From positions 1 to 59,209 of the IMG/VR virus record IMGVR_UViG_3300027763_000068: a stretch of 59,209 nucleotides of DNA. The stretch is one strand, 5' to 3'. Positions 34,135 to 56,852 of the stretch are shown here, piece after piece (positions within the stretch are counted from its first letter, which is position 1; every line of letters begins with the position of its first letter). The DNA is from a virus. The position numbers were made by a program, and so were the translations under genes. Under the pieces are notes generated by a model that had not been told where the DNA came from, made no database searches, and saw only the letters and a list, made by a program, of their open reading frames with translations.

Positions 34135-37100
34135 TTAACCGTTCGGTAATGAATCACACAGTACTTGTACTTGTGAGCAGTCTAATGATACTAATGTGCC
34201 GTCTAGTAATTTATTTTTAAATTGGGTTGTAGGAGCAAAACCATAATCTGAATATAATGCATGATTGTACGCAAAAATTTTAGTTATGGTTCTCCACGCT
34301 TCTTGTCCTTGCCAGTCGTATCCAATTAACGTTTTTGCGGTTAATTTAAATACAAATTTGTATATTTTAGTGTCTGCGCCTTTTGCTTTGTACCAGACAG
34401 GAGTATCGATTCCATCAAAATTAAACACAAATCCAAGTATATTTTCTGATGGATTCGTTACATAATCAATGCTATCCTCATACTTATAATCTACACCGGT
34501 AAAATCTGTCTTTAACAACCAAGCCTCAGCTTTAAACTCACTAATAGTTCCACGTTGGCCATTTGCGTTAAAAAGTTTTTCTAAGTTTGGTCGTATATTG
34601 ATGAATACACCTTCTCTGCCACCAGTTGTATCTACTCCTGATGTTACTTTTGGAAGCATGGTACCAAAAGGCATTACAGTTTCGTTTACGTAACCGTCTC
34701 TATTCCAAATAGCATCCACAGAAATGGTAGGAACTCCTTTTAGCGCAGGTCCTGCTGTAATGTGAGCGTTTGCAACCACTCCAAAATATTCTTGAGTATA
34801 TTGTGAATTGTTAGCAAAAGGAAAAGGAAGTGGGTAGTCTGGTGTTCCTGGAACTATCGCTGTAGTAAACTGTTCTCGATTATATTGGTATAATGCAAAT
34901 AATGGATTGTAACCTAAGTCCAACACAACACTACTTTGTTGTGGAATTCTCTCACGCGTGCGTTCATCAATGTAATAACTCATAACACTATACTCTAATT
35001 TATTTGGTTGTGTGGTATTTACTCCATTTATATCTAAAGTTAAACTTTCTCCAAATAAATTAACAGGAATAGGTTGATTTAATATGTCATCACAGTAACA
35101 ATTACTGTAAGAACCGTATTGACCAAACAGTAAACAGCTGTTTGGTGGATAGCAAGACAAATCTGTGCCGGTATCACAATGTCTGCCTCGGAACATCTTG
35201 TCCATAAATTTAAAGTATATGTCTTCTCTGCTTCCAAACTCAGCAAGATTAAATTGGCTATAAACTGGTTTCAGGCAATTAAAAGCTATGTATTTCCACC
35301 ACTCCGATTCCCAAGGCTGAGGAGTAGCTCCTATAGTATCACATGTTTTTCCCCATTGTTCAATTGGAATTTTACAACCATCTTCTGCAGAAATTGTATC
35401 TCGTTGTAAACTGTATTTTGTTTTACCACCAACTGTAGTTTTAATCAAATCAGATTCTTTTAACTCACCAAGAAGATACAAAGACCAATCCGGACAAGGA
35501 GATCCAGTAAGAATATCAGGTTGTCCTTCCACTTCTTTACACACACAATTAGTATCATCCCCCCAGGTTTTGTTCTTCTTATAATAATAAGAAAATCCAA
35601 TAGGTGTATCAGTAGAAAATAAATTATCAGAACACGATAAAGTGGTGTCTATACTCTTATCTGAATTATTGAATACAACACGAGATATATTTAAATTGTA
35701 ACCTGCCCAACAGTGTTCTGCAGTAAAACCAGAAAGACATGCTGAACATAGTGCACCAAATACACCACAATAATCTGGTTGTCCACATTCACTGGCTCTT
35801 TGCATGGATCCGCCAAGTTTATTCATCCAAAGTAAGTATTTTACAGTTTTGCCTGCAGGAGCATTAAATCCTAAATTTAAAATTTCCCCACCATTTGCTA
35901 GTGAACCAAACACTATATTTCCAGCACAACAGCTGAGTTCGCTTGCATTTATTGTGACTTTTTTGTTTACTTTTGCGGGATTAAACGCCATCAAAGCGTT
36001 ATCACTACCAGCATTAATATCTGTTTGATTTAAAATAGCAGTTTGTAAATCATTTAAAATTTGTTTTTGTTGATCTTGTTTTATTCCGCGACTTGCAATA
36101 GCAAGCGGTGCTTGTATAAAATCTATTTGTGAAAAATAAGGGTCTAACACATATCCGGTGCATCCACCAATAGATGCAAATACCTTTGAAAGACCTTTGC
36201 AGGAAAATGTTGCTGGATTTTTTTGATTAAAACATCCAACAGATCGTGTTTTTATTTCTTGTAAATAGTTCCATTGAACCGGATCACAACCGGAAGCGCA
36301 TGTTGTTGGGCGATTACCTTGCCAAACACCAACCCCGTATTCTGCGTGAACACATTCGTCTGATGCTTTATCAGAATCTTTACAATCCCAAACTTCTTCT
36401 ATTGGTCCATATGTTATACAATCAATATTAACATTCCAACCACAAGATCCGTTTTTAGACACACAGAAATTAACTAATCCCTTTTGTGTTTTTACAGGAG
36501 GATATTCTAAATATGAACCATAATCTTTAGCACAATCCATACACAATCTGTTTATAGTAAATTGTGATTGTACTTTAAATTGATCGGTCGGACTGCCACC
36601 TTGACAAGTATTACACCCATCTATAGGTACAGGAGGTTTAGATACTACATAAAAATTTATATTTTGTGAAAATTTAGTATTAAGTAGTGTATCTAATAGT
36701 ACTGCGTTTATAGTATTTTTAATACCATTTTTTCTACCAAATTCATCGTATGTGGTACTAATTTTTATGGTTACTGTAGCACCATTTGGTAGCAAACCAC
36801 CAGTATAACTAGAACCATTATATGTTTGTGTTATAGTAAACACATGGCCTAGTGTATTTGTGTGTGTGCTTGGCAGCTGTAATCTAACACCAGCAGGATC
36901 TGTAGTGCTTACTGTTATTTTGAATTGTGTTTCTTGTGGGGTGCTATCAGGAAGAATGATATCGGTTACAGGAGAACCATCAGCATTTAATATTGTAAAG
37001 CTGTAAGTGTACACAGGAATAACACAGGGTGGCACAGCGTCCGAGCAGTGCTTAGTGCTATTCCAAGTTCCGGTACAATTAGACCGAATAGTTTCTGTAC

Positions 37101-38772
37101 AAACACTACCATTACAACAAGCACCGTAAACTGGTGGTGGAGGATTCGAGCAATTTATGGTAGCACATGTCGAGTTTGGATAAAATACTGTCGTTGTGCC
37201 ATTTATAGCTTTGGCATCACATGATATTTGTGTTTCGTCTGGTGAACAGGATTTGCTGCCAGAAGAAGTGGTGACACAACACACACCAGAGGTACAATCT
37301 GCAGTTGTACATGTAGCACTTGCTGTCCATATATATCCACTTCCTTTAGCAAAACAAGCGGTTTGTGATATATTATTGTTAATAATACAAGCGTCTTTGT
37401 TTATACAACAACCTAAAACTGGAGAACAAACAACGCTTGGATCACTGCACGCGAGACCCGAATAAAAAGTTTTTCCTCCAGTACAGTTTGCTGGCAGTAC
37501 ACCATCTGTGCAAGTTCCAGCATCACAACAAGCTCCAGTGCTTGGAGAAGTACCACAATCAGTACATGGAGTTGTTGAAAACACACCATTTATTTCATTG
37601 CACGTATTTTCATTTGAATTATCATAACAAGTACCTTGACTACAACAGTAACCAATTCTTCCACAAGTTTGAGTACAGCTGGTGAGTGGAGTAAACACTC
37701 CTTCACCTAGTGTTCGTGCTTCACAATCAGATCCAGATATATTATCCCAACAATAATTAATATCTTGCCAGCAACACGATCCTACTGGATCACTGTAAAA
37801 TTTTCCTGTTTTTCCTATACCTCGATCAACAAATGCAGCATTAAAAGTAAGACCACCGTTCTCACTCCACATATGAACAATGTTCATGCCTTCCAGGAAT
37901 CCGTATTTACCTATTCCTTTATCAGTATTTTCAAAATATACATTTGAAGGAAAATTCCAAACGTCTTGGCCTTGTACAAACAGTGTGTAAGACTGTAAAA
38001 CAGAATTATCTGCGCTTGTTGTAAATGCTGTTATTCCAATTGGAGTCTTTAATTGATAAACAGAATATTTGTCCAGATTAATTGTGAAACCACTGGAATC
38101 CACTGCTAAAACTATATCGTTTGTTGTTCCAGTTACTATATTTCTGGCCATAGGTGTTAGATTATAAAAAGGTTCTACAAATTCTGAATAAACTTTAATA
38201 GAACTACCGGTTGCACCATTATCTGCTGTTAATCCAAACGATAGAACAGAATTAGAACCGGTTACTCCTATTCTTGTCGTAGTTGCTGAAAAGGTATCAG
38301 CAGTGTACACCACATAGTTTGCTGTGGTAGTTCCGTAAACTCCACTGTCAGTAATTGGTGATACAGTTAATAAAATTTCAGAACCATCAGAACTTAAAGT
38401 TGCTGCTATATTTCCACCACCACAAATTCCTCGAAATTCAAAAGTTTTTCCAGATATTACACTGGAAAATCCAGAATAATAAGTTGCACCAGACTGCAAA
38501 GAAACGCCTCGGGAATCTGAGTAACTTCCGGTTGGGCCAGTAAATCCAAATAATGGACCTAGTATAGTTCCGTTAGATAACTCGAATGTTATTCCACTAG
38601 AAACCAGATCAGAAACCGCGTTTATAATCCAAACACCAGTAGCACCAGTAGGACCTGAAGTTATACCGATCGCACCACGCAATCCGGCTGGACCGATGGA
38701 TCCAGTAGGTCCTGTTGGACCGGTTCGACCAATCAAATTTCCTATTGTGCTGTTTCCTATAATTGAAGGCAT
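34135..38772 (-). CDS. Giant Cys-rich, collagen-like fibre/adhesin (1545 aa)
   Basis: The largest gene of the window. Residues 16-46 are collagen-like (GRTGPTGPTG...); 50-320 a beta-rich stem; 331-583 six tandem 'CC' repeats; 585-720 an Ig-like domain (YTYSFTILNADGSPVTDI); 740-1200 a further region with many scattered cysteines (CNTCQGG, CMDCAKD, CGVFGALCSACLSG, CVCKE); the remaining part is beta-rich and ends CDSLPNG. The mosaic suggests a long tail appendage with repeated binding modules. No enzyme motif is visible. The protein would be one of the most cysteine-rich in the virion. Confidence 0.8.
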   Translation of the reverse strand: MPSIIGNSTIGNLIGRTGPTGPTGSIGPAGLRGAIGITSGPTGATGVWIINAVSDLVSSGITFELSNGTILGPLFGFTGPTGSYSDSRGVSLQSGATYYSGFSSVISGKTFEFRGICGGGNIAATLSSDGSEILLTVSPITDSGVYGTTTANYVVYTADTFSATTTRIGVTGSNSVLSFGLTADNGATGSSIKVYSEFVEPFYNLTPMARNIVTGTTNDIVLAVDSSGFTINLDKYSVYQLKTPIGITAFTTSADNSVLQSYTLFVQGQDVWNFPSNVYFENTDKGIGKYGFLEGMNIVHMWSENGGLTFNAAFVDRGIGKTGKFYSDPVGSCCWQDINYCWDNISGSDCEARTLGEGVFTPLTSCTQTCGRIGYCCSQGTCYDNSNENTCNEINGVFSTTPCTDCGTSPSTGACCDAGTCTDGVLPANCTGGKTFYSGLACSDPSVVCSPVLGCCINKDACIINNNISQTACFAKGSGYIWTASATCTTADCTSGVCCVTTSSGSKSCSPDETQISCDAKAINGTTTVFYPNSTCATINCSNPPPPVYGACCNGSVCTETIRSNCTGTWNSTKHCSDAVPPCVIPVYTYSFTILNADGSPVTDIILPDSTPQETQFKITVSTTDPAGVRLQLPSTHTNTLGHVFTITQTYNGSSYTGGLLPNGATVTIKISTTYDEFGRKNGIKNTINAVLLDTLLNTKFSQNINFYVVSKPPVPIDGCNTCQGGSPTDQFKVQSQFTINRLCMDCAKDYGSYLEYPPVKTQKGLVNFCVSKNGSCGWNVNIDCITYGPIEEVWDCKDSDKASDECVHAEYGVGVWQGNRPTTCASGCDPVQWNYLQEIKTRSVGCFNQKNPATFSCKGLSKVFASIGGCTGYVLDPYFSQIDFIQAPLAIASRGIKQDQQKQILNDLQTAILNQTDINAGSDNALMAFNPAKVNKKVTINASELSCCAGNIVFGSLANGGEILNLGFNAPAGKTVKYLLWMNKLGGSMQRASECGQPDYCGVFGALCSACLSGFTAEHCWAGYNLNISRVVFNNSDKSIDTTLSCSDNLFSTDTPIGFSYYYKKNKTWGDDTNCVCKEVEGQPDILTGSPCPDWSLYLLGELKESDLIKTTVGGKTKYSLQRDTISAEDGCKIPIEQWGKTCDTIGATPQPWESEWWKYIAFNCLKPVYSQFNLAEFGSREDIYFKFMDKMFRGRHCDTGTDLSCYPPNSCLLFGQYGSYSNCYCDDILNQPIPVNLFGESLTLDINGVNTTQPNKLEYSVMSYYIDERTRERIPQQSSVVLDLGYNPLFALYQYNREQFTTAIVPGTPDYPLPFPFANNSQYTQEYFGVVANAHITAGPALKGVPTISVDAIWNRDGYVNETVMPFGTMLPKVTSGVDTTGGREGVFINIRPNLEKLFNANGQRGTISEFKAEAWLLKTDFTGVDYKYEDSIDYVTNPSENILGFVFNFDGIDTPVWYKAKGADTKIYKFVFKLTAKTLIGYDWQGQEAWRTITKIFAYNHALYSDYGFAPTTQFKNKLLDGTLVSLDCSQVQVLCDSLPNG
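37024..37782 (-). repeat. Six tandem cysteine 'CC' repeats in the giant adhesin
   Basis: Six units of 30-45 residues start GSCC, GYCC, GACC, GCCI, GVCC and GACC. Each follows the pattern G-x-C-C, x3-8, C, x7-9, C, x-rich G-x-F/Y segment, C, x3-6, C, so about six cysteines per unit. The units differ in sequence and spacing, showing old duplication rather than recent slippage. The same unit occurs in three neighbouring genes. Confidence 0.8.
38635..38727 (-). repeat. Collagen-like G-x-y segment in the giant adhesin
   Basis: Residues 16-46 are a Gly-x-Thr/Pro series (TGPTGPTGSIGPAGLRGAIG) interrupted once near GITSG. Such short collagen-like runs trimerise phage fibres. Related runs open the next two upstream genes. 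Confidence 0.75.
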
Positions 38773-38781
38773 AGTTTATTT

Positions 38782-38789
38782 TATTTATA
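38782..38789 (-). promoter_or_regulatory. Late promoter octamer before the giant adhesin
   Basis: Perfect TATAAATA on the minus strand in the 20-bp gap before the 1545-residue gene. Only nine bases (AAATAAACT) separate it from the ATG and no ribosome site is seen, so a transcript begun here would be nearly leaderless. It might also be chance in AT-rich spacer DNA. Confidence 0.5.
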
Positions 38790-38792
38790 ATA

Positions 38793-39902
38793 TTAACAAG
38801 GAGGCGGATTTGCCGAGCAAGAAGTGGCGGAATCAAAAACACCACCATATTGCAAACAAACTGTGCGATTAGTGTCTACACAGGTTCCATTAATACAACA
38901 AGCACCAAAATCATCACAGTCTTGCGTTCTTCTATTGATACAGGGATTGGGAGAAAAATTACCACTTAAATTGTTTTCGCAGACATATCGAGTGATATAA
39001 TCTAAACACGTTTTTGCTCCATTTGAATTACAGTAACAACAAGAACCAATAATTTTGTTTTGGTATGTTGTGGTATTGGTGTCGTTAAAAATATCAGAAC
39101 TTATATAAGTTATACCAGAATTTTGGTTTGTTCCGGTTACACCTTTATAGCCGGTGTGATAAATTTGCTTACTGGTCCAAGTATTTCCAGACTTATAAAA
39201 TGAATTAACTGAAGAATCCCAAGGATTTGTAACCAAGGCAGTGATTCCAGTTATATTGATAAGATTTACATTTGTAATACCTGTGGTATTTTTGCCTTGC
39301 AAAAAGGAACCCATTAACGCACTTGCTAGATGTGCTGTCGTGGATCCACTAGTTACTGTTTGATAACGAAATACTCTGTTTCCTGTTTTGTCTAGTAAAG
39401 TATTAGCTGTATTTCCTAACGCATATAAAACAGTACCACTAACACCTAATGCATTAGAAGAAGTTGCAGTTACTCCTTTGAATATTAAATTATTACCACT
39501 GTAAGTTAAACTTAATCCAGCAGAACCAAAAATAGATTTAAAGTAAGCAGTTAAACCTATTACTGGATTATTGCTAACAATACTAAAAGCATTAGTATCA
39601 ACTCCGGTTACACCTTTAACATCAAACGGATTGGTAGATACTAAACCAGAAAAATCTGTTGGAGTATTGCCTGAAAGGCCAGTTATTGATATTTTGGTTC
39701 CATCAATTAAGTGTACAGTTATTCCGTTTGCATCTATTTTTGTTATGAATGCAACACCAAGTCCGGTGGCTCCGGTTGCTCCGTTATTACCTCCAGTTGG
39801 ACCGGTTGGACCGGTTGGACCTGTGGAACCAGTAGCACCAATAAAGGTGTTGGCTATCGGCATATTACCAATTGGGATATTACTGGATCCTAGTCTACTC
39901 AT
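38793..39902 (-). CDS. Collagen-like, Cys-rich fibre protein
   Basis: A 369-residue protein with three parts: an N-terminal anchor-like stretch (NIPIGNMPIANTFIG), a collagen-like run at residues 22-48 (GATGSTGPTGPTGPTGG and GATGATG), a beta-rich stem, and two 'CC' repeats at the C-terminus from residue 286 (GSCCYC... and GACCINGTC...). The C-terminal end PPPC closes the second repeat. It is a small version of the giant neighbour, which probably arose by duplication. Likely a homotrimeric tail fibre. Confidence 0.75.
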   Translation of the reverse strand: MSRLGSSNIPIGNMPIANTFIGATGSTGPTGPTGPTGGNNGATGATGLGVAFITKIDANGITVHLIDGTKISITGLSGNTPTDFSGLVSTNPFDVKGVTGVDTNAFSIVSNNPVIGLTAYFKSIFGSAGLSLTYSGNNLIFKGVTATSSNALGVSGTVLYALGNTANTLLDKTGNRVFRYQTVTSGSTTAHLASALMGSFLQGKNTTGITNVNLINITGITALVTNPWDSSVNSFYKSGNTWTSKQIYHTGYKGVTGTNQNSGITYISSDIFNDTNTTTYQNKIIGSCCYCNSNGAKTCLDYITRYVCENNLSGNFSPNPCINRRTQDCDDFGACCINGTCVDTNRTVCLQYGGVFDSATSCSANPPPC

Positions 39903-42763
39903 AGTGGGGAGCTCGGAAGTGTTGGTGTGGTTGTATTATTTATTGTCTGATTTTTATTTACTATTCTATCTTTATATACTGGTGGTATCTTCCATAATTT
40001 ACTACTAGCTGGAATCAACCCGTCGCAACGCAACATACGAACAGGTCTTACTTTATATAAATCCTGTCTGCTAGCTTTATACACTTTATAATTGTTTATA
40101 TCACCATTAACATCAATATTCATGGCAATTGCAACAGAACCTGGAGAAGAAGTAATTTGTGTTTTTACTCCATTTATAATAAATTCACCATAACATCCTT
40201 CTAGTTTTGCAAAATTAAAAGCACCAGTAGAAGTCCAATACGTTCCATTTAATGGTTCACCGTTTACAACTAAATTTTGATTAATATTGTAACCAAAAGT
40301 ATTTGTTGTATTTGCTGCAATAAAAGCCATTTCATCGTGGCTTGGTAAATACCATCCAGAAAGTATTGCGTTGTTTGGAGTTGCTGTTTGAGTATCGGAA
40401 GTCAATCCATCAGACAATAATCTGGTTGCTCTAAATGCATTTGGAATTGTGGTTACTGCGTAGAATTGATTGTAATTTATAGGATTTGTGCCAGGAGGAT
40501 TTACTGCTCGTTGCCAATAAGCATTATTTGCATTAACTGCTCGAATAGTATTGTAAAGTCCCCAAGATGTTTTCCAATAACCAAATAATTTGGGAGTTTC
40601 TGATGCTGTATCAAATGCACGAGATTCGCCACCATTACCCAGACCTGTTGATGTAGAACATGTGACAAACGTATCACGTAATATTATTTGAGCTAATGTT
40701 GCACCAGTAAATCCCTGTGCCCAGTATCCTTCTTTAAGATAAAATTTTGTAGTATAATATTCGTACGGATTATCATTATATGTAATATCATTTCCACCTG
40801 GCATAGGGCCCCAAGATGATCCAGTTGCTCCCCATGGGAATGTGTTATATTGATACGTTTCATCTGGAGATTTAATATTTAATTTTGAATCAATGTAAAC
40901 GTCATCCGGATAAACTATAAGCACATAAGATTCATTAATATTATTACAGTCTTTAGTTATACCGTATGCTCTATGATCAACATAAGAAGTGTAAAATTCA
41001 GAAGAATAAGTAGTTTCTGGCATACATCCAGTAACTCCTGATGGAGAAAATAAAGTTTTAGCTCCTAAAATTAAACTTTTGCCAGGATTAAATACATCAA
41101 CAACAATTCCGCCACCGTATTTTGATCCTTTACTAATAGGAACACCGTCAACAAAACCCAAGCAAGATATTGTGGTTGGGCATATAAATGAATCACAAGA
41201 TTGTGTTACACCACCATAAAATCCGTTAGAAGTAAAACAAGTAGAAAAAGATGTTTGTGAACAAGAACCATTTATGCAACACGGACCAGTGCCAGAAGCA
41301 CAAACAGCACGACCTAATGTGTCAAAACAAGAACTGGAGTCTCCTTGATAAAAACCACCAGACGATACGCAAGTATTATACGGCAATTCTTGACAATTTC
41401 CTCGGCCATCACAGCACGCACCTATCCTGTCAAATATCTTATTACAATTAGTGGTTGCTGTGCTTGTAAAATTTCCTGCAAATTTTACGGTTTGAGAAGC
41501 TAATCGTTGTAAACAGTCAGTACAGGTTAATTGATCAGAAATTGCTTCTCTTATCTTTGTACTGCCGGAAGTAGTTTCTTGACAACAACAACCCGGCTTA
41601 TCGCAGATAAAATCTGTGGCAGGACCACACGTAGTTCCTGCTCCATGAAAAAATCCAGTACAATTAGACGCTATGGTTTCAACACACGTACCGTCAGATT
41701 TACAACACGCACCCACAATAGTGCCCAAATAAGATTGACCAGATCCAGAACTAGTACTGCAATTTGTTTGATATAATGTGGTATCACATTTAGTTGATGT
41801 TGGTACAGCAGTAGCATACCAGCTACCATTTATACCGAAGAAAGAAATCTTCATATCACAGGTAACACCATCCACCGACAAACAAGGAGATTGTTGTTGT
41901 GGCCAAAAAATGTTTGAACTGAATCGTTTTGTTATATCTCTAGGATTCTTTGCACCAGAAACAATTAAATCAAATGCGTATGCATTTTGGTCTGGTGTGT
42001 AATCATTAACAACTATGGTTCCAGTATTATTTGCAAAATCTGCAACAAATACTCTAGATCTGGCACCAAACATCAATGAATCGTATTCAGCAGTAAACGG
42101 ATTAAACGTACAAGTTATACCATTGCCAGAGTGCTCGCAATAAACAGCTCCTGTAGAACCTGTCCATCCAGCTCCTCTTACGTGTTCAAACACGTTTGCG
42201 TTTACAAAACGAACACTTTGAACAGGTGGCCCAGATATTCCTGTACTTTGTAAGTAAGTAATACCGGACGTATTTGGTATTCTTTCAAGCTTTCCGGAAG
42301 AATTAAATCTTAAGAAATTTCTGTCTGTGGTAGAACTGGCAGCAACAGTTACGCCTTGAGAAATGTTCTGCAAAGATATATCAATATAGTTTACCCGATC
42401 TACGACAGACAAAACAGAATTTGAATTATTTACAAATCTAACAGGACGTAACAGTATATCACTACCACTAATACCGTAAGCCAAACTAATACCATTACCC
42501 AGATTGTTTACCGCCAGTGAGTATGATGCATTTCCGGTTGCACCATATATTTGAGTAGCAGTACCATAAGTTTTACCGTTAGAAAATGTAGTAATAAGAT
42601 ACCGATTTACCAGAGTGATACCAACAATACTTGGTCCTGTGTTTCCTGTTAAACCAATACCAGTGGCACCTGTTATACCGGTAGCACCTGTAGGCCCGGT
42701 AGGTCCGGTAACACTGTACTGCGATCCGAATAGATTGACTGAGCTGGAACTCAGAATGTTCAT
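39899..42763 (-). CDS. Collagen-like, Cys-rich fibre with DUF1566 domain (954 aa)
   Basis: A 954-residue mosaic. Collagen-like run at residues 20-45 (TGPTGPTGATGITGATG), beta-rich stem to about 290, four 'CC' repeats at 351-534 (GACCKSDGTC, GCCCQETTSG, GACCDGRGNC, GPCCINGSC), then a large DUF1566 domain with GWYLPSHDE near residues 802-810, TYWTST and a VRPVRMLRC end. After it a short Thr/Pro tail. DUF1566 domains are C-type-lectin-like and suit receptor binding. It overlaps the next gene by 4 nt, so the two fibres are co-translated. Confidence 0.78.
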   Translation of the reverse strand: MNILSSSSVNLFGSQYSVTGPTGPTGATGITGATGIGLTGNTGPSIVGITLVNRYLITTFSNGKTYGTATQIYGATGNASYSLAVNNLGNGISLAYGISGSDILLRPVRFVNNSNSVLSVVDRVNYIDISLQNISQGVTVAASSTTDRNFLRFNSSGKLERIPNTSGITYLQSTGISGPPVQSVRFVNANVFEHVRGAGWTGSTGAVYCEHSGNGITCTFNPFTAEYDSLMFGARSRVFVADFANNTGTIVVNDYTPDQNAYAFDLIVSGAKNPRDITKRFSSNIFWPQQQSPCLSVDGVTCDMKISFFGINGSWYATAVPTSTKCDTTLYQTNCSTSSGSGQSYLGTIVGACCKSDGTCVETIASNCTGFFHGAGTTCGPATDFICDKPGCCCQETTSGSTKIREAISDQLTCTDCLQRLASQTVKFAGNFTSTATTNCNKIFDRIGACCDGRGNCQELPYNTCVSSGGFYQGDSSSCFDTLGRAVCASGTGPCCINGSCSQTSFSTCFTSNGFYGGVTQSCDSFICPTTISCLGFVDGVPISKGSKYGGGIVVDVFNPGKSLILGAKTLFSPSGVTGCMPETTYSSEFYTSYVDHRAYGITKDCNNINESYVLIVYPDDVYIDSKLNIKSPDETYQYNTFPWGATGSSWGPMPGGNDITYNDNPYEYYTTKFYLKEGYWAQGFTGATLAQIILRDTFVTCSTSTGLGNGGESRAFDTASETPKLFGYWKTSWGLYNTIRAVNANNAYWQRAVNPPGTNPINYNQFYAVTTIPNAFRATRLLSDGLTSDTQTATPNNAILSGWYLPSHDEMAFIAANTTNTFGYNINQNLVVNGEPLNGTYWTSTGAFNFAKLEGCYGEFIINGVKTQITSSPGSVAIAMNIDVNGDINNYKVYKASRQDLYKVRPVRMLRCDGLIPASSKLWKIPPVYKDRIVNKNQTINNTTTPTLPSSPL
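41162..41713 (-). repeat. Four tandem cysteine 'CC' repeats in the 954-residue fibre
   Basis: Four units following the same G-x-C-C...C...C...G-x-F/Y...C...C plan as in the giant adhesin. The second unit has an extra cysteine (GCCCQE). Units are diverged at the DNA level. Confidence 0.75.
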
Positions 42764-47406: not shown

Positions 47407-48774
47407 TTATCCTACTTCAGTAAATGGTCCAGTTATAGCAAATGCGTTTGTTTGTAATGGTCTAAAATTACGATCACCTTCTGGGTAAATTGCTGTGGCT
47501 TCACTACCGTAAAATTGTGGATTACTTAATACCGCAAATTTAGTTATTTGTTGAACATTAACATTACTTGCAAGTTCGTCACTAGTTATTTGAGCCTTGA
47601 TTCTATACCTTTTTCCGGGAACTAATTGAGTTGGATCATTATAAAAATTACTTGGAAAATGTACCAATTTAATGTAATCATCCACAAAAGTGTTATTTAA
47701 GCTCCAGTCTGTTACTTCGGTATAGCCAGTACCAGACGCTAACAACTCAACACCAGTAACCGGATAACGACCAGTAGTTGGATCCAAGCCACTAGTCAGT
47801 ACTCTAACTCTGGCACCAGTTCCGGTTTTATCTTTAATTGTTATTTCTGGATTTTCTGTGGTTGTAGAAGTATATCCAGATAGAGTTAAACCACTTAAAT
47901 CTATACGTGCAGCCATTATACCGGTTTCGTTTGTGAAATTGTTAAGAAGATATAAGGCGTACTCTCTGCTTGAGCCCGGAACCAGCGTGTACTGTTCTTC
48001 TGTTAGTTCGTCTTTCAGTGTTTTTATTGTTTTTGTGGCTGGGCATAACGGATTTTCTAAAGGATGGGAACTGGTGATACCACCAGAAGTAACACCACTC
48101 AAGAAGATAACGTCTCTGTCTAAAGCATCTGCCAGCTTTTGACATTCAAAGCAGTCTGAAAAAATTACTTCATTAGTAACGTCACCTGCATTATAAACTT
48201 CTGATGTTACTTCATCTACGCTATTTTCTTTAAAATACAGACAGCAACAACCGTAAGAAGTTAATCCGGTACCACAAAGAGATTCGTATTTGTCTGAAAA
48301 AGAACTAAACGCTTGTGATTTTCCTAAATTTGGAATAGGAAGATCGGTTTTTGACAAAAATTCTAGTTGAGTGATGTCTGTTTTAAAATACGGAATCCAG
48401 CTGTATCCATCCTCATAAGTTTCAATTGTGGGAGTTGTATGTGATGGAATAACGGTAGAAATTGCAGATTCTTCGTCTATTCGGTTATTTGGTTTGTTGT
48501 CTGTACAGATATAAACTATTCTATTGCTGGTGTTATAAGCATAATAATTTGAAGTAATATCTGGACCCCATGCGGTATACACTTTTCCGTATTGCCATTC
48601 GTTATTGTCTGCAATTAATGCTCTTTCAGTTGCACCAATTCTTCTGGCAACCAAAGAGTCTGCAGTTGGATTGAATGAATTAGGGTCACTTTGGCCAGAT
48701 AAACCACCTAAAACCAAATGTAATTCTGGAAATTGTATCTCTTTTAAAAAGTTTTGTGATAATTTTTCGTTCAT
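47407..48774 (-). CDS. gp8: Baseplate wedge protein gp8-like
   Basis: A 455-residue protein in the T4 gp8 position behind gp6 and gp7. YGKVYTAWGPDITSNYYAYN (residues 62-81), IVYICTDNKPNN and EDGYSWIPYFKT (near 121) are the recognisable gp8 elements. It contains an inserted cysteine-bearing segment (YGCCCLYFKENS near residue 174, SDCFECQKL near 207) absent from the T4 protein. Longer than T4 gp8 (334) by these inserts. Adjacent to gp7 with a 1-nt gap. Confidence 0.78.
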   Translation of the reverse strand: MNEKLSQNFLKEIQFPELHLVLGGLSGQSDPNSFNPTADSLVARRIGATERALIADNNEWQYGKVYTAWGPDITSNYYAYNTSNRIVYICTDNKPNNRIDEESAISTVIPSHTTPTIETYEDGYSWIPYFKTDITQLEFLSKTDLPIPNLGKSQAFSSFSDKYESLCGTGLTSYGCCCLYFKENSVDEVTSEVYNAGDVTNEVIFSDCFECQKLADALDRDVIFLSGVTSGGITSSHPLENPLCPATKTIKTLKDELTEEQYTLVPGSSREYALYLLNNFTNETGIMAARIDLSGLTLSGYTSTTTENPEITIKDKTGTGARVRVLTSGLDPTTGRYPVTGVELLASGTGYTEVTDWSLNNTFVDDYIKLVHFPSNFYNDPTQLVPGKRYRIKAQITSDELASNVNVQQITKFAVLSNPQFYGSEATAIYPEGDRNFRPLQTNAFAITGPFTEVG

Positions 48775-48775
48775 A

Positions 48776-49897
48776 TTATGAGCAGGTTAATCCTGTGTTT
48801 GGATAACTTTGTCCTTCTTTTGGTGTTAAATATAAGAAATCACCAATATTTATCTCTCCAAATGACATGCCTGGATAATACTTACTGGATATTTCTGCAT
48901 CCCAACTGGGGAAAACGTATATTGGTTGACCAGTAACGCCACCATAGGCTCCAGAACAACCAAATGTATACCCAATACTTGCAGTAGACCCTAGTTTATA
49001 CAAAGCATAATTTGCCAAAAATGGCAATTCACTTTTTACGTTACTAGTAGCGTCTGATACATTATTAAATATATCTTGTCTTACTTGGAAGAAATCTTTA
49101 GTACCAGCAGGATGTAATATTGGTTTTACTACATTTTCATAAGCTTCTAAAGACACACCAGAAACGTTAACCACGTAAGAATGTTCTTGCCACAAATCAT
49201 TATCGTAAAGAACAGAATAATTTAAATAACTGCCTGTTAATTGTGGATAAAAGTCATCAAGATTGGTGGAATAATTGGTAGCAGAAGCCAGATTATCTGA
49301 CATCCAATCGTATCTGCCTCCGTTTAATCGTAAAACGTATCGTTTAGGATAAGATATTGATATTAAATCTGGATCTACACCAAAAAATTGATTAATTACG
49401 TATTTAAATCCGTCTTCTGCTCCCTTTTTAGAGTAAAGATTTACTTTAATGTTATCAATAATATTTTTAACTTTTTCCGGGCTAACAATATTGTTATTAA
49501 TAGAATCAGCGGGTAAAGCATTTAAATAAGTATTAGATAAATGTTCAATTAATTCGTCTGGAATATTTTCTAAATCTATAAGATCTTCTAAACGAAAAAA
49601 ACTTAAAGTGTTTATATCTTTAGTATTGCAAGTTAACCACTGATAATATTTTTGGGTCAAGGATATTAAAACAGAATCACCATTAGAAGTTAATCTTAAC
49701 CAGTACGGAAAAAGTTCTCGTATATTTAAAGGGTAATTACAAGAAGTGGTTAAATCTACTGTTGGAGCGTAATAAGAAGCTACCGGTTGTGCTAATGATT
49801 TAAATTGAGCTGTCGGTTCTGTATCGAGAGTAGAAAGGTCTCGATTTGTACCGTATTCTTTGTTTTGTTTATTTTTATTGAAGAATAATAGTATCAT
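48776..49897 (-). CDS. gp7: Baseplate wedge protein gp7-like (short)
   Basis: A 373-residue protein between gp6 and gp8, so by position gp7. KKGAEDGFKYVINQFFGVD (near residue 155) and YPKRYVLRLNGGRYDW resemble the segment shared by gp7 and related tail proteins that mediate wedge assembly. T4 gp7 is 1032 residues; the reduced size is normal in cyanophage-like members. Start MILLFFNKNKQ is basic. Confidence 0.65.
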   Translation of the reverse strand: MILLFFNKNKQNKEYGTNRDLSTLDTEPTAQFKSLAQPVASYYAPTVDLTTSCNYPLNIRELFPYWLRLTSNGDSVLISLTQKYYQWLTCNTKDINTLSFFRLEDLIDLENIPDELIEHLSNTYLNALPADSINNNIVSPEKVKNIIDNIKVNLYSKKGAEDGFKYVINQFFGVDPDLISISYPKRYVLRLNGGRYDWMSDNLASATNYSTNLDDFYPQLTGSYLNYSVLYDNDLWQEHSYVVNVSGVSLEAYENVVKPILHPAGTKDFFQVRQDIFNNVSDATSNVKSELPFLANYALYKLGSTASIGYTFGCSGAYGGVTGQPIYVFPSWDAEISSKYYPGMSFGEINIGDFLYLTPKEGQSYPNTGLTCS

Positions 49898-52002: not shown

Positions 52003-52866
52003 TTATGCTACTCCGTCTCGCATAAGATAGAGATACATGGAATGTTTTTGTGCTGTTAAGATTCTTTGTATTTTGTAAATCATCCAACGACCACCAAAAT
52101 TAAAGTAATCTACATTTACCATTCTTCCTGGTCTAGCGTTAAAATTACCGTGAACAAGAATTTTAATTCTTTGAGTGTTCATTAATGTGGTTTGAGCTCT
52201 TCTAAGAAGTGGTGTTTTTGGTGGAGTGTTCCAAAATGTAGCCGCAGTTTTTGAATATTCTTTATAGTATTTAAAATATGGACCAATTAAACTGGTATTT
52301 CCACAATCTACCGTATTATCTAAAACTTCACTGGAATCTGGTGGAAATGGCGATTCACCAAATAATTTTCGTTTATCGTAATTGTAATAATATTTTTTAT
52401 CTGATGTAGCAACCAACTGTTCACCACCACCGGCATCACCACCACTGTCAGTATTAATTTCTACTTCAACATACGGTTTCCAATCAGCATTTACACCACT
52501 AACAGCAGTAAATTTTTGTTCAGTAGGACTATCACAATTTGTGCAATTATAGTCTGCATGGGGATTGCCGTAATCTATTCCAATCCAATCAGTGTTTAAT
52601 TTTTGTTTAATTAATAAACACTCGCTTGTTCCATTTTTTAATTCTGCCAGATAGGTATCGCTTGGTTCTGCATCAGAAGGTTTTAATTCTGCAACTTTAT
52701 CTGGACATGTGCAGTACGGTTGATCTTTAGGGCAGTTTATATTAGAAACTGGCCCATACGGACTCATACAAGAATACTTATTATCCGTATAAAAAGAATT
52801 TATTCCTTTTTTATACGGAGGATACGAGTATTCGTCGCTTGTTGTGTTGTATGGAAATTGAGACAT
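52003..52866 (-). CDS. Putative hub-associated protein, C-terminal tube-like domain
   Basis: A 287-residue protein from the ATG at 52866; a GTG 12 codons upstream would run back into the previous gene. The N-terminal half contains cysteine pairs (YCTCPDK, CTNCDSP), while the C-terminal part (TQRIKILVHGNFNARPGRMV, DYFNFGGRWMIYKIQRI) is like the second tube-fold domain of a phage hub protein. Read with the 710-residue gene directly upstream it may be the other part of a split gp27. Separated from that gene by 20 AT-rich bases. Confidence 0.55.
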   Translation of the reverse strand: MSQFPYNTTSDEYSYPPYKKGINSFYTDNKYSCMSPYGPVSNINCPKDQPYCTCPDKVAELKPSDAEPSDTYLAELKNGTSECLLIKQKLNTDWIGIDYGNPHADYNCTNCDSPTEQKFTAVSGVNADWKPYVEVEINTDSGGDAGGGEQLVATSDKKYYYNYDKRKLFGESPFPPDSSEVLDNTVDCGNTSLIGPYFKYYKEYSKTAATFWNTPPKTPLLRRAQTTLMNTQRIKILVHGNFNARPGRMVNVDYFNFGGRWMIYKIQRILTAQKHSMYLYLMRDGVA

Positions 52867-52886
52867 TTTTATTATATATTTAATGT

Positions 52887-55019
52887 TTAACAGTCGGCAC
52901 ACAAACCGTCATGGCCGTTTTCTACATCAAACAAATATAAATTATCTGTTGGTATTGATGTTTTTTGTGTGTAAATATCAGAACTTGCTAGTGATATACT
53001 TTGTATTCCCGTTAATGTTTGTTTTGGTATTCTGTACATTTGTACTATTCTACCACCAAAATAAAAATCATCGGTAAAAGGTTGGGTTCCATCGTCGTCA
53101 AATGCAGGTGGACAATCACCAGTTAGAACTCTAAATTTACCTACTGGCATCATTGCAAAATTATTAGGATATGATGATAATGATCCTTTGTTAGCCGTTA
53201 CTCCTAAACCATCACTAATGCCCGGATTCATCATTAATGTCCAAGGACCGGCATTACCACCATACAATTCAAAATCATCGGGAATTCTTGAGTTTAAAAT
53301 TTCATTTAAATTATAAGCTCTGGTGTCTGGAAATTCTTCTATGTTTGGTTCTGGTGGTGCCATTCCTTGTGCTGCACCTTGTGGTTTAATGAAAACAAAC
53401 GGAAAACTATTATCTTCAAACTCTATTATTTGATAAAATGAATCAGATAATATGCTTGCAGCTTGATCTCTTGGCCAAAATTCTACTTCAGTCCATGTGT
53501 ATTTCCACACACCACTGGAATCTTTTTCTATATCTTGATCTACTTCGTAATTTATTGCACCATTACTGCCATAAATTTTTTCTGCACCAGTTAATACCGC
53601 AAAGAATGTTTCAGGAACTGGTCTTACACAACAAACACTATTTTTATAAACTTCCCATTTTTTCTTTAATCTTTTTGCTTGTGCGTATTCTTGGCGAGTT
53701 GTAATTAAAGGCCATTTGATCGTTCTCCAAATTTTCTTTAACCAACCACCAGGCAACTCACAAAAATCTGATTCTGATCTCCAAAAATTATTTTCCAGTC
53801 TTTCTGGTTCGATTTCAAAAGTTTCATCACCAACATAAGAATCGTATCTATCATAATAGTTCCACCAAGGAGATTCTAAACTATTATACGGATAAGAATA
53901 ATAACCGTAATTAGTATCAGTAATGCGACAAGTTGTACTAAGAGCTCCAGGATAATTTTTAATTGGATCTTTTGCTATCTTTTTCCAATCTCCACCTTCA
54001 TCTCCGTAATCGTATTTGTATAACACTTTACTTAATTGACCGTTAGTATCCAAAAAGTCGCTATAGATATCATCCCATCTAGGTTTAACACGCAAATATT
54101 CTCCGATAAAAGCACCTTTATCAAATAAATTTGGTGGACTTATTGCGTTTATAACTTCAAAAGAAACTATAGCGTTTGCTGCATTTTCGTCTAGTACTGG
54201 ACTAAAAGATAAATGAGGATACGTTTCTTTTTCATACTCTTCCACTAGGCTTTCAATACATCTAAAATTCCAGTTGTATAGATCTTCCCAAAAGAAAAAA
54301 TTAACTGCTTTTGGATTTTTGGCGTAACAAGCGTACTCAGCAACGTAATTCATTATTTGTGAAAGTCTGGAAGTATTACCAGCTTTAGACCAAGGGTAAA
54401 GAAACGGATCGTGTTTATACCAGATATCGTTGAATGTGGGATCTGCTTTTAGTTCCTTGTTTGGATTTACTTTAGATATTATATCTTGAATAAACCCATC
54501 CATTGGTTCTTCAGATTTTTGTAAATCAATACCTTCAACAAATTCTTCTTTATCATAATCTGCAGTTTTTGATATTTTACCAATAAAATCTTGTACGTAT
54601 GTGGTATCAAAATTTCTATACAAAAACAGTTTAGAAGCAAAACGAACAATAATTTTAGCTGGCCGTCCGTCTGGTCCTGTTAAACGCTTTGAAGCTAGAT
54701 CTGTAGGCACCTGAATATCCACAATATCAAATTCAAAAGTTTCTGTTTCATTTGCTGAAATATTGTGTGTAATTTTTACAACATTATCAAAACTTAATTT
54801 ATTAGCGTAAGAAAGATTAGGACTAGGATCTACAAACTCTATAGAACCAAAAATAGACTCAGCAAACATGTCTTCATCTATAGTAATTTGTTCAAATAAT
54901 ACTGGTTCATAATTTGGATCTCCTGTATCACTTTTTGGATCTTTTGGAAATATTTCTAAATTACCAATCGTGACTTTTAAACCAATAATGTTAGGAAATG
55001 GTATGTTCGGTTCGCTCAT
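52887..55019 (-). CDS. Putative baseplate hub protein, gp27-like N-terminal domains
   Basis: A 710-residue protein. The N-terminal ~200 residues (LFEQITIDEDMFAESIFGSI, DVFKITHN-like strands, NFDTTYVQDFIGKISKT) resemble the beta-barrel start of hub proteins that fit onto the tail tube. The middle and C-terminal parts are rich in Trp, Tyr and Asp and not assignable; the end is HDGLCADC. It lies between gp53 and gp25, where a hub would be expected. Overlaps the gp53 end by 4 nt. The gp27 relation is a structural guess. Confidence 0.55.
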   Translation of the reverse strand: MSEPNIPFPNIIGLKVTIGNLEIFPKDPKSDTGDPNYEPVLFEQITIDEDMFAESIFGSIEFVDPSPNLSYANKLSFDNVVKITHNISANETETFEFDIVDIQVPTDLASKRLTGPDGRPAKIIVRFASKLFLYRNFDTTYVQDFIGKISKTADYDKEEFVEGIDLQKSEEPMDGFIQDIISKVNPNKELKADPTFNDIWYKHDPFLYPWSKAGNTSRLSQIMNYVAEYACYAKNPKAVNFFFWEDLYNWNFRCIESLVEEYEKETYPHLSFSPVLDENAANAIVSFEVINAISPPNLFDKGAFIGEYLRVKPRWDDIYSDFLDTNGQLSKVLYKYDYGDEGGDWKKIAKDPIKNYPGALSTTCRITDTNYGYYSYPYNSLESPWWNYYDRYDSYVGDETFEIEPERLENNFWRSESDFCELPGGWLKKIWRTIKWPLITTRQEYAQAKRLKKKWEVYKNSVCCVRPVPETFFAVLTGAEKIYGSNGAINYEVDQDIEKDSSGVWKYTWTEVEFWPRDQAASILSDSFYQIIEFEDNSFPFVFIKPQGAAQGMAPPEPNIEEFPDTRAYNLNEILNSRIPDDFELYGGNAGPWTLMMNPGISDGLGVTANKGSLSSYPNNFAMMPVGKFRVLTGDCPPAFDDDGTQPFTDDFYFGGRIVQMYRIPKQTLTGIQSISLASSDIYTQKTSIPTDNLYLFDVENGHDGLCADC

Positions 55020-56231
55020 AATTCACTTATTTTAATTTTATTATCTGTATTACTTTTTAATAAATTTGCCACTGCAGTTTGTAGGTTATTAACACCGGTT
55101 TGACTTAATTGCTTAATCTGTGTTTTATTGTAAAGGTCATTATCTAAAAGTTCTTTTCTTAAAGTTACAAAGTCATCATTGTCATTTGCTTGCTGATAAC
55201 CGGAAATGTATGTGTTTTGCCAATTATTATTAGAACCAATATTTAATATCTGGCCACCTTGTTGTATGTATTTTGTTGAATCCAAATATCTTTGAATACC
55301 AAGTAATTGATTTTGAATTGTTCTTATTTGAACATATTTGTTTTTAGCCGAATCGTATCTCCAAACAGAAACTATAGTACCTGAAGGATCATCAAATGAT
55401 ACTGGAAGTGTGTCTGGGAATTGATAAGTTTTTACAAATATTCTTTTGTATTGATTATCAACAGTCTCAACTACTCCCAGATATTTTTTATTTGTGTCTG
55501 TTCCTCTTAATATGATGTGATCGTAACCAGAATCTATTTGTGAAAAAGCACCGCTCAAACCTAAAGCAGTCACCTTTTCTAATGTTTGACCAGCACATCC
55601 AGCATCACCGTATTTTAATATATTACCCCAAACAACTAGTTGTTTGTTGGTATTAATACCAGCAGAATGGTATCGCCCTGCTGAAACTGTAGTATATGTT
55701 CCTGTAGGAATGTTTAACTGGCCGTCTGCAGTTGCTCCCCAAGCGTATGCAGTACCATTAGAATGCACAGCAAGGGCGTGATTATAAGTGGCAGACACCA
55801 TGGTGATACCAGTAACGCCTGCTGGAACAACTAGTTGTTGATACGTATTTGAACCCCAAGCAGTAAGACCGTAGTTTGCGCCTAAAATACCAACACAGAA
55901 TCCAGCACCACAATCAGCATCATAAAAAGTTACTCCTGCTGGCGCAGATGTACCAAAATTTACAAGAGTTCCGTTTTCTTTTATTGCTACACCACCAGAT
56001 AAATCACTGGTCCACGCGGTTTTAACTATTCCAGTTGCACCAGAAGCAGCCACTGTGAAATCATCACACTCATCACCAAAACAATACATGGAACCGTCTT
56101 TAACGGCAACAATTCTGTCACCAGAAGCGTCAATGTAAGAGTAGTTTCCTGTTTTGGATTTGTAAAGTTCTCCAAATTTATTAAAAGAACCAGTATACTC
56201 ATCAGTGGCTGGTAGATATTCCAGCCAATCC
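55016..56231 (-). CDS. gp53: gp53 C-terminal part (RCC1-like propeller and end) after frameshift
   Basis: Continues gp53 in the next frame. From the frameshift zone the reading frame gives DWLEYLPATDEYTGSFNK and runs openly to the stop; the first ATG inside it (at 56089) is not a convincing start, having no ribosome site and sitting in mid-domain. Residues show repeated strands of the RCC1 kind: VAVKDGSMYCFGD, GVAIKENGTLVNFG, ALAVHSNGTAYAWG, SAGINTNKQLVVWG. The last third (TISGYQQAND-like helices, KELLDNDLYNKTQIKQL) belongs to the wedge protein. A corrected protein would have about 611 residues. Confidence 0.75.
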
Positions 56232-56852
56232 TATATCTTTACCCCAGGCGTAAATGTAACCTCTAGAGTCTAAACAAGAACTAAAATAATTGCCATTGGA
56301 TATTTGAGTAATATTTGGTTGTTGATTAAATGTGTCTGGGATTATGGATTGACCGTATTGTGGAGAACCGCACGAAGACTCGGATGTCACGCCGCCAGCA
56401 CCATAACATTTAATACTAAATGGACCAGTGCCTGTTTCGTAGATTAGTATATCGCCTGCAGATATACCATCAAGATTAGTTCCAGTATACCCCTTTAAAA
56501 AATCACCAGTAAACCCAGTGGAACCAGCTGCTGGGATAAAATCAGAGATGTTAGCAAACTGATACACCCAACCATCGTATTCCAATTCTATTTGAGAATT
56601 GTAACTTTCTTGTGTTTGGGCCCAGTCACGTAACGGATTTCTTACACCATTAACTAAAAATAAAGACCAGTAGTACTGAGGATCATTATATAAACGATAA
56701 GAAACTTGATCGGCGCGTTCACCTGGTTGTGCCTGAGTTGTAAGAATTGCTCCCGGACGGTCAAACACCAAATTTATAGACTTAAAAATATTGGTAACTT
56801 CGTAAGTTCCACCATCAAATCCATACTGTATTTTAGGAAAGAATTGAAACAT
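56202..56852 (-). CDS. gp53: Baseplate wedge gp53, N-terminal part before frameshift
   Basis: gp53 joins the wedge to the hub. The N-terminus MFQFFPKIQYG and then GERADQVSYRLYNDPQYYWS (residues about 44-63) and FLVNGVRNP match the family. The ATG at 56852 overlaps the gp48 stop (TAATG), and is preferred over a GTG three codons earlier. The reading frame stops at 56202 within an RCC1-like strand (GYIYAWGKD), although the same protein clearly continues in another frame. Family members are about 200 residues; this one is enlarged by the propeller. Confidence 0.82.
   Translation of the reverse strand: MFQFFPKIQYGFDGGTYEVTNIFKSINLVFDRPGAILTTQAQPGERADQVSYRLYNDPQYYWSLFLVNGVRNPLRDWAQTQESYNSQIELEYDGWVYQFANISDFIPAAGSTGFTGDFLKGYTGTNLDGISAGDILIYETGTGPFSIKCYGAGGVTSESSCGSPQYGQSIIPDTFNQQPNITQISNGNYFSSCLDSRGYIYAWGKDIGLAGISTSH

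Follow-up and report, generated by a model that had tools for sequence, protein, structure and literature searches.

A viral contig of 59,209 bases, analysed here over its whole length (the window), encodes on its minus strand a baseplate wedge protein, an orthologue of phage T4 gp53, that carries a predicted seven-bladed β-propeller of the RCC1/BLIP-II type (Table 1). The reading put forward here, which is favoured if narrowly, is that the protein consists of a wedge N-domain, a complete propeller and a C-terminal extension, and that the propeller is a docking platform. A known domain type and a known core protein thus occur in a combination that was not found described; a literature search, which missed most subscription journals and preprints, returned no published report of an RCC1 domain or propeller in gp53.

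The assignment of the gene to gp53 is shown by its N-terminal domain and by synteny. The window copy is divided between two open frames, and the N-terminal one matches Pfam Phage_gp53 (PF11246) over residues 1-86 (E = 9.5e-10) and PHROG 232, the baseplate wedge subunit (E = 1.4e-18). In L006, a relative with an unbroken gene, the Pfam match has E = 2.6e-9; the scores of these two copies are 37.5-38.9 bits against a cut-off of 21, which is exceeded in 27 of 28 sequences scanned. Profiles of the N-domain match T4 gp53 (5hx2; 2.1e-10 over residues 1-94) and the wedge subunit 9F4A (2.4e-12), and residues 1-95 align with gp53 proteins that have no propeller (hhalign, 2.9e-20). The gene lies in the order gp4-gp48-gp53-hub, in a T4-type neighbourhood that also includes gp25 and gp6, and the same baseplate gene order is found in the relatives compared. 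The order gp4-gp48-gp53 is common to the window and cyanophage S-MbCM6, and gp4-gp48-gp53-hub to the window and Ochrobactrum phage OC; the gp53 proteins of these phages (307 and 187 residues, respectively) are both without a propeller. The genes around it include members of portal, capsid, terminase and baseplate families of T4 type, and the major capsid protein shares 55-58% identity with gp23 of cyanophages. The hub gene seems to be split, its adjoining ORFs 52003-52902 and 52887-55019 (minus strand) matching consecutive parts of PHROG 350 (tail protein); both are matched, with their order kept, in the related contigs G001, G003, and G005.

The two open frames of the window gp53 adjoin on the minus strand, one running from 56861 to 56202 and the other (P0001) from 56224 down to 55016, and the six propeller strands quoted in an earlier sequence-only reading of this DNA are all found on that strand, spread over both frames. 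Since three relatives, 93-95% identical, have a single open frame of 612 codons with the same start methionine, the break is particular to the window copy, either as a sequencing or assembly error or as a recent mutation. There is no support for programmed frameshifting as an explanation of the split, the relatives being open through the same place.

The propeller is recognized from sequence in both the window copy and its relatives. The C-terminal frame of the window copy exceeds the curated cut-off of Pfam RCC1_2 (22 bits) with E = 1.5e-14; the three matches to this family in the record all fall within the gp53 gene, and RCC1_2 was found in none of 14 control genomes. L006 matches RCC1_2 (3.9e-15, 55.6 bits) and the RCC1-like domain (7.9e-22), and both were matched in every one of the 23 propeller members scanned. 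The best match among PDB sequences is BLIP-II, by single sequence (6.2e-14) and by profile (1.6e-26), followed by UVR8, HERC, and RCC1.

The structure was predicted with AlphaFold on a relative 93-98% identical to the window copy, not on the broken window copy itself. With eight sequences the model had a mean pLDDT of 51.8 and was poor except in the propeller, so an alignment of 28 sequences was used instead; it gave a mean pLDDT of 78.6, with most of the propeller at 80-96 and lower values in loops 154-164 and 207-221 and around 416-432. The strands of this model form seven groups, and residues 142-452 superimpose on BLIP-II with Z 29.0 and an rmsd of 2.3 Å over 255 of 271 residues (Foldseek, 4.1e-20). 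The structure search says little on the N- and C-terminal parts of gp53 because the propeller fills the match list. The predicted RCC1/BLIP-II-type seven-bladed fold is thus well supported, and the earlier proposal of an RCC1-like propeller within a baseplate wedge protein is borne out by Pfam RCC1_2 and Phage_gp53 matches, by the predicted fold, and by conservation in relatives. The domain is wider than the 55400-56300 that had been given, and shifted (residues 142-452; 55499-56429): the last blade appears to be completed by strand 147-151, which precedes the first motif that had been noticed. The positions of strands 147-151 and 437-451 are those expected from the alignment range 142-452, and from the model we infer that both ends of the domain would contribute to one blade and so close the ring, strand 147-151 pairing with 437-451.

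Table 1. Features of the propeller-bearing gp53 gene, in window coordinates
Feature	Position	Strand	Remarks
gp53 (baseplate wedge) gene with propeller	55016..56852	-	frame-broken in window copy; closest intact relatives have 612 aa
gp53 N-terminal domain, residues 1-95	56568..56852	-	PF11246; profile matches; hhalign
Linker, residues 96-141	56430..56567	-	partly low confidence in model
Seven-bladed RCC1/BLIP-II-type propeller (predicted), residues 142-452	55499..56429	-	sequence matches, AlphaFold model, structure comparison
Closing blade 7, N-terminal half, residues 142-173	56334..56429	-	model strand 147-151; BLIP-II alignment begins at residue 142
Blade 1, residues 174-212	56217..56333	-	strands 181-186, 190-195, 200-204
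Frame break of window gp53	56207..56231	-	intact relatives read through in one frame
Blade 2, residues 236-272, with Cys258/Cys263	56039..56149	-	strands 240-244, 247-252, 255-260
Blade 3, residues 272-306	55937..56041	-	strands 276-281, 288-292, 297-301
Blade 4, residues 306-345, with Cys315/Cys320	55820..55939	-	strands 310-315, 319-324, 330-334
Blade 5, residues 346-383	55706..55819	-	best RCC1_2 match; Pfam and model
Blade 6, residues 383-425	55580..55708	-	Pfam and model
Blade 7, C-terminal half, residues 433-452	55499..55558	-	strands 437-442, 446-451
C-terminal region, residues 453-612 and stop	55016..55498	-	beta-rich, then three helices

The part of the protein that follows the propeller is less readily placed. 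The sequence-only reading had described the propeller as lying between recognizable N- and C-terminal parts of gp53; the N-terminal part is confirmed by Pfam and by profiles, but for residues 453-612, which are conserved across the propeller-gp53 family, neither Pfam nor profile comparison gave a significant similarity to gp53. In a comparison with the gp53 C-terminal half (profile positions 96-200), their last helices line up with the C-terminal ends of gp53 proteins at a non-significant hhalign E of 0.43, and comparison of the region with the PDB gave no significant match (best E 0.077). The region may be a diverged equivalent of the gp53 C-terminal half; the propeller may have been inserted into gp53 or may, along with new sequence, have taken the place of the C-terminal half.

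A search of IMG/VR for the same arrangement in related phages returned 28 intact contigs encoding a gp53 with a propeller, together with one (L073) that is also broken, although elsewhere, after residue 55. The intact members are 598-625 residues long and 38-98% identical to the L006 copy, and some of the contigs that carry them measure 118-154 kb. A search of 50,697 public phage records gave no propeller-gp53; it yielded only RCC1 proteins unrelated to it, from Marinobacter phage PS6 and Salicola phage SCTP-2, and gp53 N-domains without a propeller, such gp53 proteins being common. Genomes of bacteria and archaea, covering 84,980 species, gave none either. When a tree was built from the N-domain, a branch with support 91/92 separated the proteins with a propeller from the rest, with one change in 94% of bootstrap trees; the other branches are long, which calls for caution, but the proteins with a propeller apparently form a single clade of one origin. 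The phages that carry them are an uncultured T4-like group.

Several known systems share a part of this arrangement. T4 gp53 (PDB 5HX2, 5IV5) shares the N-terminal domain and occupies the same position among the baseplate genes, but it is a protein of 196 residues without a propeller, and its C-terminal half gave no significant alignment with that of the window gp53. BLIP-II (PDB 1JTD, 3QHY, 3QI0) has the same seven-bladed RCC1-type fold and is the best match by sequence, profile, and structure; it is, however, a separate inhibitor protein, whereas the propeller described here belongs to a baseplate protein of a phage; it shares about 24% identity with BLIP-II and has an additional long loop that follows blade 1. 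There is no reason to expect that the gp53 propeller binds β-lactamase, or that the functions of RCC1 proper (Ran exchange, chromatin binding) operate in a phage baseplate. RCC1 propellers had been taken to be known mostly from eukaryotic exchange factors and bacterial surface proteins, yet they are less rare in phages than this implies: the RCC1-like protein GAP_001 of phage GAP32 was detected in the virion by mass spectrometry and has homologues in other Rak2-like phages (PMC5259590), phAPEC6 encodes eleven RCC1-like proteins (PMC7247149), and three RCC1 proteins of phage W70 were found in virions by mass spectrometry (PMC11370258). Unlike the window gp53, the RCC1 proteins of the Rak2-like phages (GAP32, phAPEC6) and of W70 are products of separate genes, often in several copies, and are not described as gp53 fusions. 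Other viral contigs (L038-L044) encode tandem RCC1 repeats with no gp53 domain seen; these proteins have about 740 to more than 1800 residues and many near-identical repeats, and their N-termini are not those of gp53, that of L038, L040, and L044 being shared.

A docking or wedge-stabilizing role for the propeller seems the most likely. It is proposed because most well-studied RCC1-fold domains bind other proteins, as in the pairs RCC1-Ran, BLIP-II-β-lactamase, and UVR8-COP1. In T4, gp53 is present in six copies and its binding makes the wedges associate (PMC3004832); by extension from this copy number, there would be six propellers per baseplate, each held on its wedge by the N-domain. Each propeller would act as a rigid platform for protein docking, and docking would either tighten wedge-wedge contacts or hold a neighbouring protein of the baseplate or fibre base. 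Blades 2 and 4 may in addition be stapled by conserved cysteine pairs.

The rate at which the propeller evolves bears on this proposal. Within the family, pairs of N-domains are on average 53.6% identical, pairs of propellers 47.0%, and the first parts of the C-terminal region 50.8%; column entropies are 1.26 for the N-domain, 1.39 for the propeller, and 1.45 for the C-terminal part. The dN/dS of the propeller is 0.06-0.35, except for 0.47 in one near-identical pair with very few changes. Propeller loops are more variable than strands (mean entropy 1.58 vs. 1.09), a pattern that fits any propeller and singles out no conserved binding face. Between the window and G001, gp53 is 98% identical in its N-terminal part and 93% in the rest, gp25 is 99% identical, and gp6, matched as two pieces, is 81% and 100% identical, while identity of the ORFs at 34135-42763 is only 62-77%; in G003 and G005 these ORFs are matched in part or not at all, the stretches compared ending within that region, and gp53 is 59% and 40% identical, respectively, over the part that bears the propeller. 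ORF 52887-55019, which is hub-like, reaches no more than 77% identity to G001, so core genes are not uniformly slower than the ORFs at 34135-42763. The latter are three large fibre-region ORFs on the minus strand, with stretches similar to one another, and are likely to encode host-specific fibres; wedge ORFs at 47407-49897 are 95-98% identical in the relative whose fibre-region ORFs are 62-77% identical. Taken together, the alignments indicate that the propeller is under purifying selection and changes at about the rate of the gp53 core, a pattern that speaks for a built-in structural or docking domain and against a hypervariable receptor-binding module.

Receptor binding, which the sequence-only reading had proposed alongside fibre binding, is accordingly regarded as an improbable, if serious, alternative. 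The propeller would then project from the wedge and bind a conserved surface molecule of a common host, such as a core glycan; binding of a conserved host molecule would be compatible with slow evolution of the propeller. One parallel is phiKZ gp131, the C-terminal domain of which (PDB 4GBF) is, like the window propeller, a seven-bladed propeller at the baseplate; situated at the baseplate edge, it has been suggested, without experimental confirmation, to bind a receptor (PMC4901313). This structure is among the structural matches to the propeller model (Z 14.3), but gp131 is a separate peripheral protein, not gp53, and is absent from the sequence matches of the window propeller. The receptor-binding protein of S. 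aureus phage phi11 also has a propeller, in that case five-bladed. Against receptor binding stand the lack of hypervariability, the apparently single origin, the divergence of the propeller jointly with the wedge core, and the presence in the same phages of separate, faster-diverging fibre-region ORFs.

An unlikely alternative is that the propeller has no specific partner and is a stabilizing decoration, a rigid block, possibly stapled by disulphides, that fills the space between wedges or shields the hub. The four near-invariant cysteines of the domain form two C-x4-C pairs (258/263 and 315/320; window about 55895-56083, minus strand), of which Cys258, Cys263, and Cys320 are present in every one of the 28 intact members and Cys315 is present in 27; additional cysteines of gp53 are clade-specific. 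The pairs sit at a strand end in blade 2 and in a hairpin of blade 4, and it is plausible that they staple these blades as putative disulphides; phage Milano shows that a contractile tail can be made rigid by disulphides (PMC10811340). That the entire domain is conserved across members only 38-40% identical, however, suggests more than filling.

For the docking reading favoured here, a more far-reaching form can be considered, in which the six propellers would make up a new docking ring that joins fibres or wedges in a manner unlike T4, and gp53 would be the part that passes the signal from the fibres to the sheath trigger; this form is regarded as quite doubtful. The idea that metagenome misassembly joined an unrelated RCC1 gene to gp53, to which the frame break of the window copy might lend colour, has a negligible probability and is rejected, since the 28 intact contigs, from many separate datasets and down to 38% identity, share the same layout.

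A propeller of a usually protein-binding type, built into gp53 and retained in one clade, would demonstrate that the inner baseplate, conserved as it is, has room for large new domains. It also gives the RCC1 propellers of virions a defined place in the particle, one that is accessible to cryo-EM.
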